64,000 nucleotides of DNA, taken from contig JADGDG010000001.1 of the NCBI GenBank assembly GCA_016744995.1, positions 288,011 through 352,010 on the forward strand. Reading direction: 5' to 3'. Origin of the DNA: Gammaproteobacteria bacterium. Lineage in GTDB: Bacteria > Pseudomonadota > Gammaproteobacteria > GRL18. The position numbers and the translations under genes are program-made. A model generated the notes under the pieces. The model saw only the letters and a program-made list of their open reading frames with translations. It searched no databases and was not told where the DNA came from. Below are positions 19,035-27,404 of the stretch, in pieces (positions within the stretch are counted from its first letter, which is position 1; the number at the start of each line of letters is the position of its first letter).

Positions 19035-20831
19035 CTACTTATTTTTCTTCACTTTTTTCCTGGTAGCTAGCTTCTTCTTAGCCGCTACCTTCTTTTTAGT
19101 GGTAACCTTTTTCTTAGCCGCTACTTTCTTTTTAGGGGCTACCTTCTTCTTAGCCGCCACTTTCTTTTTAGTGGCAACCTTTTTCTTAGCCGCTACTTTC
19201 TTTTTAGGGGCTACCTTCTTCTTGGCCGCTACTTTCTTTTTAGGGGCTACCTTTTTCTTAGCCGCTACTTTCTTTTTAGTGACAACCTTTTTCTTAGCCG
19301 CTACTTTCTTTTTAGGGGCTACCTTCTTCTTAGCCGCTACTTTCTTTTTAGTGACAACCTTTTTCTTAGCCGCTACTTTCTTTTTAGGGGCTACCTTCTT
19401 CTTAGCCGCTACTTTCTTTTTAGTAACAACCTTCTTCTTAGCCGCTACTTTCTTTTTAGGGGCTACCTTCTTCTTAGCCGCTACTTTCTTTTTAGTAACA
19501 ACCTTCTTCTTAGCCGCTACTTTCTTTTTAGTAACAACCTTCTTCTTGGCCGCTACTTTCTTTTTAGTGGCAACCTTTTTCTTAGCCACTACTTTCTTTT
19601 TAGGGGCTACCTTCTTCTTAGTCGCTACTTTCTTTTTAGGGGCTACCTTCTTCTTAGCTGCTACTTTCTTTTTAGTAACTACCTTCTTCTTAGCCGCTAC
19701 TTTCTTTTTAGTGGCAACCTTTTTCTTAGCCGCTACTTTCTTTTTAGTAACAACCTTCTTCTTGGCCGCTACTTTCTTTTTAGTGGCAACCTTTTTCTTA
19801 GACACTACTTTCTTTTTAGGGGCTACCTTCTTCTTGGCCGCTACTTTCTTTTTAGTGACAACCTTCTTCTTAGCCGCTACTTTCTTTTTAGTGACAACCT
19901 TCTTCTTAGCCGCTACTTTCTTTTTAGTGACAACCTTCTTCTTAGCCGCTACTTTCTTTTTAGGGGCTACCTTCTTCTTAGCCGCTACTTTCTTTTTAGT
20001 AACTACCTTCTTCTTAGCCGCTACTTTCTTTTTAGGGGCTACCTTCTTCTTAGCCGCTACTTTCTTTTTAGTAACTACCTTCTTCTTGGCCGCTACTTTC
20101 TTTTTAGGTGTTTCTTTCTTATCTTCTTTCACTTTTTCAACCTTTTTCTCTATTGACACAGGCTCTGCATCGACTGGGGTTTTAACTAATGGATCAAGAA
20201 TTTCAGTGAGATGAGCAAAGATTTCGTCAACACTTCCAACACCTTCAATGACAATATTTTTACTTTGCTGCTTATAATAGGAAATTAGTGGTTCTGTTTG
20301 TGAAGTGTATATTTTCAGGCGATGACCAATAGTTTCTTTATTGTCATCAGCTCTTTGAATTAACTTGCCGCCACATTTATCACAGACTTCGGTCAATATA
20401 GGAGCAGAAGTATAGACGTTGTACATCTGACCGCAATCAGCACAGGTTCTTCGACCAGTCAGGCGATGCATCAGATCGTTAAGATCAACATCAATCAGAA
20501 TTGTTTTTTCCAGAGGTTTATAAATTGTGTTAAGCATATTATCAAGCGCTTCTGCCTGAGGAATATTTCTTGGGAAACCATCAAGAATAAATCCATAAAA
20601 AGCATCAGGCTCTTTTAAGCGTTCTTCAATGATCCCAAGAACAATCTCATCGGTTACTAATTCGCCAGCTTCCATTGCTTCTTTTGCTTTGATTCCAAGA
20701 GGCGTTTCATCTTGAACAGCGGCACGTAATAAGTCGCCTGTAGATATTTGTGGAACACCATATTTTTCTACTAATTTTTTTGCCTGTGTACCTTTACCTG
20801 AACCTGGAGCACCTAATAAAACAATTCGCAT
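19035..20831 (-). CDS. adk: Adenylate kinase with a ~356-residue lysine-rich repeat tail
   Basis: Residues 1-215 are a complete adenylate kinase (ATP + AMP to 2 ADP): GAPGSGKGTQA P-loop, STGDLLR and LDGFPRN AMP-binding motifs, LTGRRTC LID, and the RADDNKETIGHRL arginine segment. The LID carries CxxC-x16-CxxC (C130, C133, C150, C153), the zinc-type LID. A linker (residues 216-241) leads to about 58 hexamers KKKVxx (xx alternately AA and AP, VT or AT) up to residue 598, ending RKKVKKNK. Normal Adk is about 215 residues. The tail resembles histone H1-like basic tails and could bind nucleic acid, polyphosphate or ribosomes; that is inference. Start ATG 20831 chosen as it gives MRIVLLGAPGSGKG; codons upstream are not conserved. 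Monocistronic with its own terminator. Confidence 0.93.
   Translation of the reverse strand: MRIVLLGAPGSGKGTQAKKLVEKYGVPQISTGDLLRAAVQDETPLGIKAKEAMEAGELVTDEIVLGIIEERLKEPDAFYGFILDGFPRNIPQAEALDNMLNTIYKPLEKTILIDVDLNDLMHRLTGRRTCADCGQMYNVYTSAPILTEVCDKCGGKLIQRADDNKETIGHRLKIYTSQTEPLISYYKQQSKNIVIEGVGSVDEIFAHLTEILDPLVKTPVDAEPVSIEKKVEKVKEDKKETPKKKVAAKKKVVTKKKVAAKKKVAPKKKVAAKKKVVTKKKVAAKKKVAPKKKVAAKKKVVTKKKVAAKKKVVTKKKVAAKKKVVTKKKVAAKKKVAPKKKVVSKKKVATKKKVAAKKKVVTKKKVAAKKKVATKKKVAAKKKVVTKKKVAAKKKVAPKKKVATKKKVAPKKKVVAKKKVATKKKVAAKKKVVTKKKVAAKKKVVTKKKVAAKKKVAPKKKVAAKKKVVTKKKVAAKKKVAPKKKVAAKKKVVTKKKVAAKKKVAPKKKVAAKKKVVTKKKVAAKKKVAPKKKVAAKKKVAPKKKVAAKKKVATKKKVAAKKKVAPKKKVAAKKKVTTKKKVAAKKKLATRKKVKKNK
19050..20105 (-). 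repeat. 18-bp/36-bp tandem repeat array encoding the KKKVxx tail
   Basis: About 58 imperfect copies of an 18-base unit (on the coding strand AAGAAGAAGGTnGCn-like), organised as 36-base pairs because AA alternates with AP/VT/AT. Third positions and a few codons vary between copies (for example GGCC versus AGCC, and single variants such as KVVS or KVVA), so the array has partly diverged and is not a recent clean expansion. Confidence 0.9.
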
Positions 20832-21201
20832 TTTTTTCTCACTGAATAGAATGATTTGAACACTACTTAAAGTTAACAAAGTCTTTATTAACTTTCATGA
20901 CTTCATCTTAACTTAAAAGAACGAAAACTTAATAATAATGATAAGATTAAAATATTTATAGACTCTTATTAAGACATTCTAACCCAGAGTTTGATAAAGT
21001 AAAGTTTTGACCCGATTATTTTATAAAGAAGTTGACTTTTTAGTATTGTCAGTCCTTTATTTATGTTATTAATTTGTGTTCTGAGGCAAGTGTATCTTCA
21101 ATTTTATAGATCAGCTAAAATACCTTTCTGATAAAATTGGTATAACTTTTCTAGCTGAAGGTTCTTATATTTTCTTGTATTTCAGCTGAAGGCTCTTAAT
21201 T
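20832..21201. other. Divergent intergenic region with direct and inverted repeats, 370 bp
   Basis: No gene seen. An inverted repeat AAAGTTAA (20869-20876) / TTAACTTT (20888-20895) lies just upstream of adk. A 15-base direct repeat AGCTGAAGG(T/C)TCTTA occurs at 21153-21167 and 21184-21198; the second copy places its GAAGG as ribosome binding site for the moeB-like gene. The middle is A+T rich with no further structure recognised. Confidence 0.5.
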
Positions 21202-22997: not shown

Positions 22998-24977
22998 TTA
23001 GTTTTTCTGTCTTTCAAAATAAGGCAGTGTAATTGACACCGACGTACCCTGTTCAATTGACGACGTTATTTCAAGAAAACCACTATGAGCTTCTACCATA
23101 CGCTTTACAATACCCATTCCCAGCCCTGTGCCACGATTTTTAGTAGTAAAAAAGGGCTCACCAATTCGCTTTAAGATATTTTCAGGGATGAAATCACCTT
23201 GATTAGTTATCATTATAGTCACCACATGTGCTACCTGGTTACTCTTTAGTAAGCATTGAATTTTACTGTCACTATCAGCGGCTTCTACGGCATTACGGTA
23301 AATATTTAATAGTATTTGATTTAAACGATCACTATCTGCTTTAACAAGCAATTGATGTTCATTTTTACCCCTCTGCTCTGTATTGGGCAATAATAATTGT
23401 ATACTATTTGCGCCACCAATCTCTTTATTGGTTTGAATAAAGTCAGTGGTAAAATCAAACAGGTTAATCGTGTGTAAATCTAATTTTACAGGTTTGGCAT
23501 AAAGTAAAATATCTTCAAGTAAGCGTCCCATTCTTGCAGACTCACGTTGAGATATCACTGCCCATTCACTGCCGTCTTCATCCAGTTCTAATCGCCCAAA
23601 GTACTTTAACGCCAGTCCAATTGTTGTTAAGGGATTGCGGACTTCATGCACAATCCCTGAGGTAAATTCACCAATAGCAGCTAAGCGCTTCTGCTCCGCC
23701 ATTTTAACTGTTTTACCAAAGCTATGAGTGACCAGATGTGCAATGTTACTAAGCAGTTCTATATGTTCTTCATTATATGCATTAGCTTGCCTTGAAGCAA
23801 AAATAAGCATCCCAGGGACCTGTGTTTCCTGGGTCAGGTGCAAAAAAATAGCACTTTGCATACCTTCATTTGCTAGCAACTTTAAAAAGACATAATTTTT
23901 ATTGCTTTCTGCACGTTCCCGTAAATTTGATATGAGCAATGGTTTATCACTATTAATAGCCTTTTCTAATAGCGTCGCTTCAACTGAAAAAATAGTTCTA
24001 GGCAGGGCATGCGGCCTGCCATCCATATATACTTTTTGCAGTTCCAGCATGGTGGCATTGCCGTTATGTAATAGCACACTAGTCCAGTCAATGGGTAAAA
24101 TTGAAGAAAATTGCTCTGCAATAAAACCTAGAGTGGAATCCAGATCATCACCCTGCTGAACTCGGTGTATTAACTGAAAAATGGAGTTTAACCTAAGGGA
24201 TAAATGATTAAAACTTTTGGCAATTGAGGCAATTTCATTATCACTATTAAGGACAACCTGATGGCCAAAATCACCTTTTGCAACACGATTAAAACCTTCA
24301 ACAGCACGATTTAATGGAATAATTACTTTAATATAGAAACCAACCAGAGTAAGAAAAGCAACTACAAATGCGACACCCAGGACTAATTTATTAACAAAAT
24401 TAATCCAGTTTATTCGATTTTTTAGATCTTGCTGTAATTGTTTGACTACAACATCTTCAATTATTTTTATTTTTTCCTGATTTTCACTAATGTAATGCGC
24501 CGCCGCCGCTAATTTTGGCGAATCATCCCGATCCCCCAAAGTTGCACTTAGTTCTTTATAATAATTATTCCATGTTTCTTCTAATTGAGTGAGTGTTTCC
24601 CTGGTTTTCATATCCAGATTAAGATCAACACCCGAATCCATATCAATAAGTTCTGCAGTCAGATGCTCATCAGCAAAGCAAGTGATAATATCATTTTTAT
24701 TATTCAACTGCCCCTTTAAATCATCATAATACAAATTAATATCGCGCTTATATGCACTGCTGCTTTGCGGTGCATTTTTCAAGTAGTTAAAACTCTGCAT
24801 ATCCATATAATTTGTAATGAGTTGCAGACGATTAATCAAATGCAATGCTGCCATTTCTTTTTCCCGCTCTTCAATATTGTAAAGCGTATAGCTAATGGCA
24901 AATGAAAAGAGAGATAATAAAATGCCCATGACGGCAGTAATTTGAAATTTAAGTGAATGGATCAATTTTTTTGGCAT
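22998..24977 (-). CDS. Sensor histidine kinase (TM-HAMP-GAF-HisKA-HATPase)
   Basis: 659 residues. Membrane helix at about 9-31, periplasmic helical domain to about 190, second helix near 197-217, HAMP (RVAKGDFGHQVVLNSDNEI), a GAF domain at about 275-420 and an NtrB-like kinase core: GEFTSGIVHEVRNPLTTIGL with phosphoacceptor His444, N-box LLNIYRNAVEAAD, and GTGLGMGIVKRMVE. All kinase motifs are intact. No response regulator is fused or adjacent on the same strand; it is divergent from the FixL/FixJ-like pair, whose kinase lacks its histidine, so it is a candidate phosphodonor for that FixJ (inference). Confidence 0.92.
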   Translation of the reverse strand: MPKKLIHSLKFQITAVMGILLSLFSFAISYTLYNIEEREKEMAALHLINRLQLITNYMDMQSFNYLKNAPQSSSAYKRDINLYYDDLKGQLNNKNDIITCFADEHLTAELIDMDSGVDLNLDMKTRETLTQLEETWNNYYKELSATLGDRDDSPKLAAAAHYISENQEKIKIIEDVVVKQLQQDLKNRINWINFVNKLVLGVAFVVAFLTLVGFYIKVIIPLNRAVEGFNRVAKGDFGHQVVLNSDNEIASIAKSFNHLSLRLNSIFQLIHRVQQGDDLDSTLGFIAEQFSSILPIDWTSVLLHNGNATMLELQKVYMDGRPHALPRTIFSVEATLLEKAINSDKPLLISNLRERAESNKNYVFLKLLANEGMQSAIFLHLTQETQVPGMLIFASRQANAYNEEHIELLSNIAHLVTHSFGKTVKMAEQKRLAAIGEFTSGIVHEVRNPLTTIGLALKYFGRLELDEDGSEWAVISQRESARMGRLLEDILLYAKPVKLDLHTINLFDFTTDFIQTNKEIGGANSIQLLLPNTEQRGKNEHQLLVKADSDRLNQILLNIYRNAVEAADSDSKIQCLLKSNQVAHVVTIMITNQGDFIPENILKRIGEPFFTTKNRGTGLGMGIVKRMVEAHSGFLEITSSIEQGTSVSITLPYFERQKN

Positions 24978-25226
24978 AGTGTTTACTATTATTATGCAAT
25001 CAATGAGTTGATTAGTTGTTGTAAAAATACCAACAGACAGGCCATATTGATATCTGTTTTCCCTTCATTATTATATAGAACGTTTATTTGACAAAAAAAT
25101 TACATAAAAGTGCAACAAGTCTGGGAAAAACTCTCTTAAACTTCGGTTTCTACATATTGTAAACAATCCCGGGCTAAACGATAATAGTTTTATTATAAAA
25201 AATGATCGGCTGAAGAATAAACTACT

Positions 25227-26351
25227 ATGTATCTATCAACCTTAGAAGCTGCCCAACAAACCATACTGGATCATTTACCTGTCGCCATTATAATTATCGA
25301 TGACACAGGATTAGTGCACTACTATAACCAGACAGCAGATAAACTATTGCCGACTGATTTTTTTAAGTCTGCCAACCTGACTCTGTTCACAAATGAGTTT
25401 AATAGTGATGATCTTCAGCAAGTGATTAAGCAACTTAAGGAGCATTCAGCAGAACAAATATTGGCACTTCATTTAATACATGACAGATTATTTCAGCTGA
25501 AGCTAGTGGCCAATCCTGAACAACAAGGTTTCTATTTGATCACACTTAATGCCATTGAAGAAAAGAGTGAGCAAAAAGTTGATAAAAAAATTGAAAATAA
25601 TAGCTTATTAAAAAAGAATTTCAAAGAATTAAAACAATTTTCACGTCTGAGTGCTATGAGGGAAATTTCCAGTTTTTTTGCTGACAAATTAAATCAGCCT
25701 CTGACCGCTATTTTAAGTTACACTCAGGCGATGCAGCGTCTTTATCTAAGTGATGCCTCTTCAGATGAAATCAAAAAAGCCATGAAACGAGTTGTGGTCA
25801 ATGCTGAAAATACCGGAAAAATTATCAAGGATATACGTGCCCAGCTTAATGTTAATACCTTGAACTATCAAAAAGTTTGTATGAATCAACTGATTCAGGA
25901 AAGTATTCATCTAACAGAGTTGGACAACCTGTTCTCACCGATTAAATTCACCACGCACTATGAACCTGCTTTTATGACTTTGTGTGTTGATAAAACCCAG
26001 ATGAGACAGGTTATTTTTAGTTTATTAAACAATGCCATTGATGCCGTGATGGAAGGCTCCATCAGTGCCCCTGAGATTGTTTTAAGCACTCATTTAAGCT
26101 CTCACTCAGGCACTGACTCAAAATATAAAATTACAATCTCTGATAATGGCCCCGGTTTCCCTGCAGAAATTATAAAGCATTTATTTGAACCCTTTAACAC
26201 CAGCAAAAAAAATGGCATTGGCATTGGTTTATCAATGTGCCATCATATTATAAGCTTGCATAAGGGCAGTATCAGTCTTAAGACTCAAGGTTCTACTGAA
26301 ATTACTATTTGTCTGCCTGTTACTTCAAGTGAAGATGATCATTGTCAATAA
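25227..26351 (+). CDS. FixL-like PAS histidine kinase lacking the phosphoacceptor His
   Basis: 374 residues, no membrane helix. PAS domain at about 10-110 (ILDHLPVAIIIIDDTGLVHY), then a FixL/NtrY-type dimerisation helix and a HATPase. In this family the H-box reads AHELNQPL; here it is FADKLNQPLTAILSY, so the His is Asp153 (codon GAC, 25683-25685) and the next Glu is Lys. The ATP-binding side is intact: N-box LLNNAIDAV, DNGPGFP and GIGIGLSMCHH. It probably binds ATP but cannot autophosphorylate in the usual way. It precedes a FixJ-like regulator by 15 bases. Possibly a pseudokinase, a phosphatase-only partner, or a recent mutation. Confidence 0.88.
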   Translation: MYLSTLEAAQQTILDHLPVAIIIIDDTGLVHYYNQTADKLLPTDFFKSANLTLFTNEFNSDDLQQVIKQLKEHSAEQILALHLIHDRLFQLKLVANPEQQGFYLITLNAIEEKSEQKVDKKIENNSLLKKNFKELKQFSRLSAMREISSFFADKLNQPLTAILSYTQAMQRLYLSDASSDEIKKAMKRVVVNAENTGKIIKDIRAQLNVNTLNYQKVCMNQLIQESIHLTELDNLFSPIKFTTHYEPAFMTLCVDKTQMRQVIFSLLNNAIDAVMEGSISAPEIVLSTHLSSHSGTDSKYKITISDNGPGFPAEIIKHLFEPFNTSKKNGIGIGLSMCHHIISLHKGSISLKTQGSTEITICLPVTSSEDDHCQ

Positions 26352-26366: not shown

Positions 26367-27014
26367 TTGTTAAATCAAACACCACAATCTACAGTAAGCG
26401 ATAACAACACACAAACTGTTTTTATTGTTGATGATGAACCCGATGTCAGAGCAGCATTACGCTTGCTGATCAAATCCGTTGGTTATACCGTTGAGTGTTT
26501 TGAATCAGCTGATGTTTTTTTTAATCAGTTTGAATCCAGTCGTAAGGGCTGTCTGATCCTGGATGTTCGCATGCCGGGAATGAGCGGCATGGAACTACAG
26601 GAAAAATTATCCAGCATGGAAACGCTACTGCCTATTATTATGATCTCAGGACATGGTGAAATACCCATGGCAGTTAAAGCCGTACAAAACGGCGCCATTG
26701 ATTTTCTGCAAAAACCCTTTAGTGATCAGCAATTACTGGATCGTATCTCCCAGGCGATGGAACTAAATAATAAACGGCATGCGAGTCATGATGTTCGGCA
26801 AAATGCCCAGGATAAATTTGCTTCACTGACCCCAAGAGAGCGTGAAATTTTTACTGAAGTTGTTTCCGGAAAACTCAATAAAGTTATTGCCTATGATTTA
26901 AATATCAGCACCAGAACTGTTGAAATTCATCGCGCCAAGGCAATGGAAAAGATGGAAGCAAAAAACTTATCTGAATTAATTAATCTGGCAAATTTGTTAA
27001 AAGCAGCAGATTAG
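26367..27014 (+). CDS. FixJ/TodT-family response regulator (REC-LuxR HTH)
   Basis: 215 residues from a TTG start at 26367 preceded by CGGAG. Receiver: VFIVDDEPDVRAALR, phospho-Asp in CLILDVRMPGMSGMELQ, IMISGHGEIPMAV and QKPF, which is the FixJ subfamily pattern; then a LuxR-type helix-turn-helix (LTPREREIFTEVVSGKLNKV, ISTRTVEIHRAKAMEKM). All phosphorylation residues are intact. Paired with the FixL-like protein upstream. Cognate genes and signal are unknown; no haem PAS can be claimed. Confidence 0.93.
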   Translation: MLNQTPQSTVSDNNTQTVFIVDDEPDVRAALRLLIKSVGYTVECFESADVFFNQFESSRKGCLILDVRMPGMSGMELQEKLSSMETLLPIIMISGHGEIPMAVKAVQNGAIDFLQKPFSDQQLLDRISQAMELNNKRHASHDVRQNAQDKFASLTPREREIFTEVVSGKLNKVIAYDLNISTRTVEIHRAKAMEKMEAKNLSELINLANLLKAAD

Positions 27015-27193
27015 TTAAATCTGGGTACGTAACCCACCCACTTACCTTCAACCATTGTTTCTTCATTATGTGAATTTGTCACACTCACAGAGTGATCCGG
27101 ATGGACTCGAACAGAAACAACACCATCATCTTCACAAGTCACCTGTGTACCATCATCCATTGTACAACCAAAAACCATTATGCTTCTTCTCAT
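27011..27193 (-). CDS. Small beta-rich protein, unknown function
   Basis: 60 residues from ATG 27193, which has AAGGTGAG just upstream; a GTG at 27202 in frame is an alternative and an ATG at 27178 would give MVFGCTMDDGTQVTCEDDGV. Alternating hydrophobic residues and G/D turns suggest a small beta barrel with two cysteines (GCTM, VTCE). Its stop overlaps that of the convergent fixJ-like gene. Family not recognised. Confidence 0.5.
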   Translation of the reverse strand: MRRSIMVFGCTMDDGTQVTCEDDGVVSVRVHPDHSVSVTNSHNEETMVEGKWVGYVPRFN

Positions 27194-27404
27194 TTTCCTC
27201 ACCTTTTCTATAAAGCCAATAACCTAGCGTTTTAGTCAAGTATTATGATACTAACTTTTTTGACCTGGATCAAGTAAATTAGTTTAGAAAAATTAAATCA
27301 GGTTAGATGTCTCAGATAATTACAAATAATAAGCATTACAAAGGCATGCTTATTATATTCCCAAGGCCTGTAGCAGAACATACCAGTCCTGAATATTTAG
27401 AGTA

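Follow-up and report, generated by a model that had tools for sequence, protein, structure and literature searches.

Most HisKA sensors are bifunctional, acting on their response regulators as kinases and as phosphatases. NifL, which joins a PAS domain to a histidine kinase-like core, acts negatively on NifA by binding and not by phosphotransfer. Laboratory point mutations have uncoupled the kinase from the phosphatase activity, one example being CrdS, in which the substitutions E372A, E372D, E372G and E372Q abolish the kinase activity and leave the phosphatase activity fully in place, and in which H371A loses the kinase activity and largely keeps the phosphatase activity, CrdA~P having a half-life of 2.6 min in its presence versus 53.5 min alone (PMC3510030). 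The E372A protein, kinase-minus and phosphatase-plus, is dominant over the wild type in vivo, and in HK853, HK1190 and HK4262, too, changing the Glu to Ala impairs the kinase activity and leaves a working phosphatase (PMC3510030). The polar residue (Asn or Thr) found four positions after the His is required for the phosphatase and dispensable for the kinase; the N375A change abolished the phosphatase activity of CrdS, and with N375Q no phosphatase activity could be measured (PMC3510030). As to the His itself, PleC is cited in the same paper (PMC3510030) as a case in which it is required for the phosphatase as well. The phosphatase activity of HisKA proteins is strongly stimulated by ADP (PMC7005713), and chimeric kinases carrying the FixL core are measured FixJ phosphatases (PMC11164954).

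We also have multiple examples of kinases that have degenerated. One is the pseudo-histidine kinase DivL of Caulobacter, which has Tyr for the acceptor His, is inactive as a kinase and as a phosphatase, binds ATP poorly and has DivK~P as a binding partner (PMC4211667). Others are RocA and ChrS-CA-fs, both modulating another two-component system, the former by acting on CovS (PMC7028121), the latter in Corynebacterium glutamicum, where the ChrS pseudokinase and HrrS heterodimerise (PMC9491836). RocA keeps its His (PMC7028121) and ChrS-CA-fs carries a laboratory frameshift that falls in its CA domain (PMC9491836), neither of which is true of the protein described below.

This protein, here called FixL*, is encoded in the window, by which we mean the whole stretch of gammaproteobacterial DNA analysed (64,000 nucleotides), to which all positions refer (Table 1). 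With FixL, the rhizobial oxygen sensor kinase, it has in common the domain order, the LNQPL context of the H-box and a FixJ-like operon partner, and it differs in the replacement of His by Asp, of Glu by Lys and of Gly by Arg and in the lack of a conserved His in the PAS domain; kinase activity is not expected. The H-box reads SAMREISSFFADKLNQPLTAI. When a profile of the family is aligned with 4gcz (YF1, a LOV-FixL chimera whose FixL kinase core served as the reference), Asp153 (codon GAC, 25683-25685) stands opposite the His, and Lys154 (AAA, 25686-25688) opposite the Glu, of AHELNQPL, in agreement with an earlier note on this DNA, which had located both replacements correctly. The change of Gly to Arg145 (AMREI versus AMGEM) is a third conserved one in the H-box region. 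The ATP-site motifs (N-box N269, G1 D306xGxG, F-box, G2 GIGIGLS) are intact, again as the note had it for N, G1 and G2, and the key residues of all four boxes are invariant in the 11 orthologues described below.

Table 1. Features of the FixL* locus, in window coordinates.
Feature	Position	Strand	Remarks
HK659	22998..24977	-	HAMP-GAF-HisKA-HATPase_c membrane sensor kinase, divergent from FixL*
His444 codon of HK659	23646..23648	-	coordinates computed from the ORF
Conserved box CGGTTTCTACATATTGTAAA	25144-25163, within 25144..25185	+	between HK659 and FixL*
Sigma70-like promoter	TTGTAA 25157-25162; GATAAT 25180-25185	+	17 bp spacer; overlaps the box, faces FixL*
FixL*	25227..26351	+	ORF of 374 aa; PAS-HisKA-HATPase_c order
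FixL* domains			PAS about 10-110; DHp about 129-208; CA about 220-366 (residues)
Arg145	25659..25661	+	no variation in FixL*; the FixL-type kinases compared nearly all have Gly
Asp153-Lys154	25683..25688	+	stand where FixL has the phosphoacceptor His and kinase-specific Glu
Asn156	25692..25694	+	His+3 position, HisKA phosphatase residue region; invariant
FixJ-like response regulator	26367..27014	+	REC and GerE; shares the operon, 15 bp downstream of FixL*

No transmembrane segment is evident in the FixL* sequence. The protein scores 75 bits against PF02518 and 24.2 bits against PF00512, slightly below the cut-off of 26.9, and a HisKA/HATPase_c fold, with DHp and CA and with the N, G1 and G2 motifs, is found by sequence, in the AF2 model and by Foldseek. 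The AlphaFold monomer (nine rows) is of modest confidence, with a pLDDT of 68.5 and a pTM of 0.46, weakest at residues 112-149 and in the ATP lid, and thus served for the domain order only. By sequence and by fold alike the best PDB match is the FixL/YF1 kinase core (4gcz), and DivL (4q20) is among the Foldseek matches of the model. Against the curated FixL model of NCBIfam (NF041777) FixL* reaches 128.6 bits, the cut-off being 850, and matches in the kinase core only; no haem-binding His is conserved in its PAS domain, where N34, Y103 and L104 are the only invariant columns, and thus the name FixL applies loosely. The FixL-like identity proposed earlier holds for the kinase core and the operon with FixJ, and fails for the FixL model and the PAS His. 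Lacking the acceptor His and a conserved PAS His, and falling short of the model cut-off, FixL* does not qualify as a FixL; formally it is a pseudo-histidine kinase, with the absence of the acceptor His conserved in 11 of 11. The NifL model gives 87 bits, under its cut-off, and the partner of NifL, NifA, is an enhancer-binding protein and not a phosphorylated response regulator.

Eleven orthologues, that of the window included, are present among 24 genomes of the family and belong to two genera (G000, the window, and G004, G007, G008, G009, G011, G012, G013, G014 and G015 of the same genus; G019 of another). All 11 frames are open, the G019 copy ending at the end of its contig. The acceptor position is occupied by Asp in every one and by His in none, a result that rejects a strain mutation or a sequencing error, the alignment having been set beforehand as a test by the earlier note; the next position is Lys in 10 and Gln in G019, and L-N-Q-P-L follows in all, with Asn156-Gln157-Pro158 invariant. 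Mean pairwise identity is 0.38 in the PAS domain, 0.81 in DHp and 0.63 in CA, and the median dN/dS is 0.36, about 0.05 and 0.16, respectively; thus selection has been strongest on the least divergent domain, the one that has lost the His. Where the genomes also carry canonical FixL paralogues, these slightly exceed FixL* in conservation (0.88 in DHp and 0.76 in CA, versus 0.79 and 0.56 for FixL* there). A decaying gene, or a mutation private to a strain, might be suspected from the loss or breakage of the system in G005, G013 and G014, but it is refuted by eleven open frames with the same H-box change in two genera and by the low dN/dS of DHp, and we consider such an explanation scarcely credible.

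With an ATP site both intact and constrained, FixL* might still be a kinase, with Asp153 or another residue as the acceptor. No His occurs in DHp of the window protein and none is invariant in DHp across the family, and so an alternative acceptor His there is rejected. An Asp borne on a helix, with no acidic metal pocket, is a poor phosphate acceptor, which counts against Asp153. The Glu has also been lost, and in CrdS its change to Asp or Gln is enough to kill the kinase activity (PMC3510030). Retention of kinase activity is, on these grounds, very improbable.

In a FixL-type box, H-E-L-N-Q-P, position His+3 is taken by Asn and position His+4 by Gln, the equivalent of N375 of CrdS being Gln157; as N375Q of CrdS is inactive, the residue rule derived from that protein can be transferred to FixL* only with care. 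Asn156 and Gln157 are the same as in canonical FixL, and with the FixL* box matching canonical FixL at these positions and FixL-core chimeras dephosphorylating FixJ, the FixL box appears to support the phosphatase reaction. Having lost His and Glu and otherwise kept the FixL H-box, along with the DHp surface and the ATP site, FixL* looks like a natural kinase-minus, phosphatase-plus genotype, its Glu-to-Lys change not being among the substitutions reported for CrdS. Stimulation of HisKA phosphatases by ADP would explain why the ATP site has been conserved. We infer, by analogy, that kinase activity has been lost and phosphatase activity retained, and that FixL* may work most like an engineered HisKA mutant of this genotype; it seems to be the natural counterpart of CrdS E372A and HK853 E261A, although these are single engineered changes that keep the His and lose the kinase residue, whereas FixL* is devoid of both His and Glu.

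Our main reading, to which we assign a probability of a little under one half (about 0.47), is that FixL* is a dedicated negative partner that dephosphorylates FixJ~P, FixJ being phosphorylated by another kinase, most likely HK659. According to this scheme, FixL* would be soluble and PAS-gated, incapable of autophosphorylation, and would retain the four-helix bundle for regulator docking, the polar H-box residues Asn156 and Gln157 and a nucleotide-binding CA domain, dephosphorylating FixJ~P as its PAS domain and nucleotide state allow; FixJ would receive its phosphate most likely from His444 of HK659, and the output would depend on how a signal at the membrane, read by HK659 (on), weighs against one in the cytoplasm, read by FixL* (off). 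PleC, whose phosphatase activity needs the His too, and DivL, which has lost both activities, count against this reading. The earlier idea of a pseudokinase or phosphatase sensor fits the conserved Asp and the retained Asn156 and ATP site, the activities themselves being assigned by analogy.

The chief alternative is that FixL* possesses neither activity and binds FixJ, FixJ~P or HK659, sequestering its partner or sensing its phosphorylation state, as a DivL-like pseudokinase. Like FixL*, DivL has a PAS domain and conserves HisKA and HATPase_c without the acceptor His, its action on a phosphorylated regulator parallels what would be expected of FixL*, the match to 4q20 points the same way, and RocA provides a precedent of a pseudokinase that modulates a partner. 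DivL, however, is of another lineage, has Tyr and not Asp, and binds ATP poorly, whereas the ATP motifs of FixL*, along with Asn156 and Gln157, are conserved; and FixL*, unlike DivL, shares its operon with a full FixJ bearing a DNA-binding output. We regard a DivL-like role as the main competitor, if a rather unlikely one, of the phosphatase reading.

The gene neighbourhood suggests a candidate for the separate kinase. His444 of HK659, noted earlier as intact in the window, lies in HEVRNPL and is conserved in all orthologues read, and no response regulator other than FixJ adjoins HK659. Counting against a role as donor of FixJ, its kinase core is AtoS/ZraS-like, and kinases of that group are known to work with NtrC-type regulators. 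HK659 is present with FixL* in 11 of 11 genomes (broken copies included) versus one of the 13 family genomes that are without FixL* (p about 1e-5 by Fisher's test, which takes no account of relatedness). The order DusC, HK659 (-), FixL* (+), FixJ (+), Hsp33, GatB is kept in most loci with long enough contigs, and the three-gene neighbourhood that the earlier note proposed to look for in relatives is thus conserved there; in G019 a relative of HK659 is found on another short contig, and in G007 extra DNA lies between FixJ and Hsp33. From this neighbourhood, HK659 is the probable phosphate donor of FixJ.

The locus has natural variants. In G005 (L083:2750-5528) FixJ and HK659 stand head to head, about 130 bp apart, with no trace of FixL* in that genome, representing either a natural deletion or a locus that FixL* had yet to join. 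Another, partial copy of HK659 in G005 (L088) may stem from another strain in the assembly. In G013, a high-quality relative, HK659 is split after the H-box, apparently by a mobile element: its two halves (L047:6228-7622 and L085:5066-5740) lie on a single contig with 2.95 Mb between them, and both are flanked by similar element ends, TATCAACACCTTTnTTTATCGGCTTG, and a common CACCAGTATC, with transposase-like and methylase-like ORFs nearby. FixL* and FixJ are intact in G013 despite the split, and HK659 is therefore not an obligatory donor everywhere; together with a frameshifted FixJ in G014, this indicates that the trio is not essential and that FixJ may have other donors. The window genome also holds three canonical FixL-FixJ type pairs. 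The three-protein system proposed earlier is thus supported by the conserved neighbourhood and by the HK659-FixJ pair standing alone in G005, and is weakened, as an obligatory arrangement, by G013.

The same variants bear on a split kinase, in which FixL* would be an activator, its CA domain phosphorylating the His of HK659 or of a canonical FixL within a heterodimer. The CA motifs of FixL* are conserved, heterodimers of this kind have the precedent of ChrS and HrrS, and HK659 and the canonical pairs provide candidate partners; but the DHp-CA identity of FixL* is about 22-28% to HK659 and about 27-32% to the canonical FixLs, low enough to make mixed four-helix bundles unlikely, and G005 maintains HK659 and FixJ without FixL*. 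A split kinase appears improbable to us.

The FixJ-like partner has an intact phosphorylation pocket (Asp22, Asp23, Asp66, Ser94 and Lys116), the earlier note having called the partner FixJ intact, and the pocket is kept in all unbroken copies. Against the FixJ model the protein scores 232 bits, the cut-off being 255. The start of alpha1, the surface that docks DHp, is D-V in all genomes carrying FixL*, and the two that have FixJ without FixL*, G005 and G010, show A-I or E-I there; this is the pattern expected if FixL* docks there, but with two cases it is only suggestive. In G010 the FixJ relative (69%) follows a gene for pyruvate phosphate dikinase and stands by itself (L084:5206-5853), and neither FixL* nor HK659 was found in this genome, which is 64% complete. 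In G014, a symbiont of Bathyaustriella thionipta, FixJ is frameshifted and HK659 is cut at a contig end, FixL* being intact (L037/L086:2259-2881). Downstream of FixJ in the window is a small ORF of ~60 aa (27029-27210, minus strand, MRRSIMVFGCTMDDG...), a relative of which occupies the same place in G005 (L083:2031-2213).

The box upstream of FixL* is present in all 10 loci whose sequence extends that far; eight copies are identical and two carry a single change. It is absent in G005, which is without FixL*. The box probably serves the FixL*-FixJ operon as operator or promoter. No second copy within 3 mismatches occurs in this genome, and targets of a FixJ regulon were therefore not found by this route.

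The Asp variant itself is rare. The genome has 63 HisKA matches, and all others read possess the acceptor His, FixL* being the exception. A scan of 369 genomes of the class for the pattern A-D-x-L-N-Q-P-L gave 11 further matches, all of them unrelated proteins or spurious frames, a stricter version run on 398 genomes of the phylum gave a single further match, in a spurious frame of 42 aa, and in the family genomes nothing but the FixL* orthologues and two spurious frames was matched; these scans cover the LNQPL-type H-box only, and other types could escape them. In the open-access literature searched we found neither a natural HisKA protein with Asp as the acceptor residue nor a natural HisKA kinase that is a phosphatase only. 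The parts are known, and for their combination (a conserved FixL-type protein with Asp-Lys, an intact phosphatase surface, a separate kinase and FixJ) no precedent was found. We suggest, tentatively, that a histidine kinase conserved at the genus level has been turned into a dedicated regulator phosphatase by the changes of His to Asp and Glu to Lys, the opposing activities being split between two proteins, and two sensors, of one locus. The locus would then look like evolution's version of the separation of kinase and phosphatase, with the activities on different sensors beside one regulator. FixL* makes it easy to ask if a HisKA phosphatase can do without both His and Glu and, as a natural non-phosphorylatable FixL core, could serve in optogenetic circuits based on FixL/FixJ.

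Elsewhere in the window, an adenylate kinase ORF (19035-20879, minus strand) carries a lysine-rich repeat tail of ~390 residues (KKKVAAKKKVV/AP/T...), similar to the tails of histone H1 and AlgP, and the reverse strand of the repeat holds a mirror ORF (19099-20214) with the same repeat.
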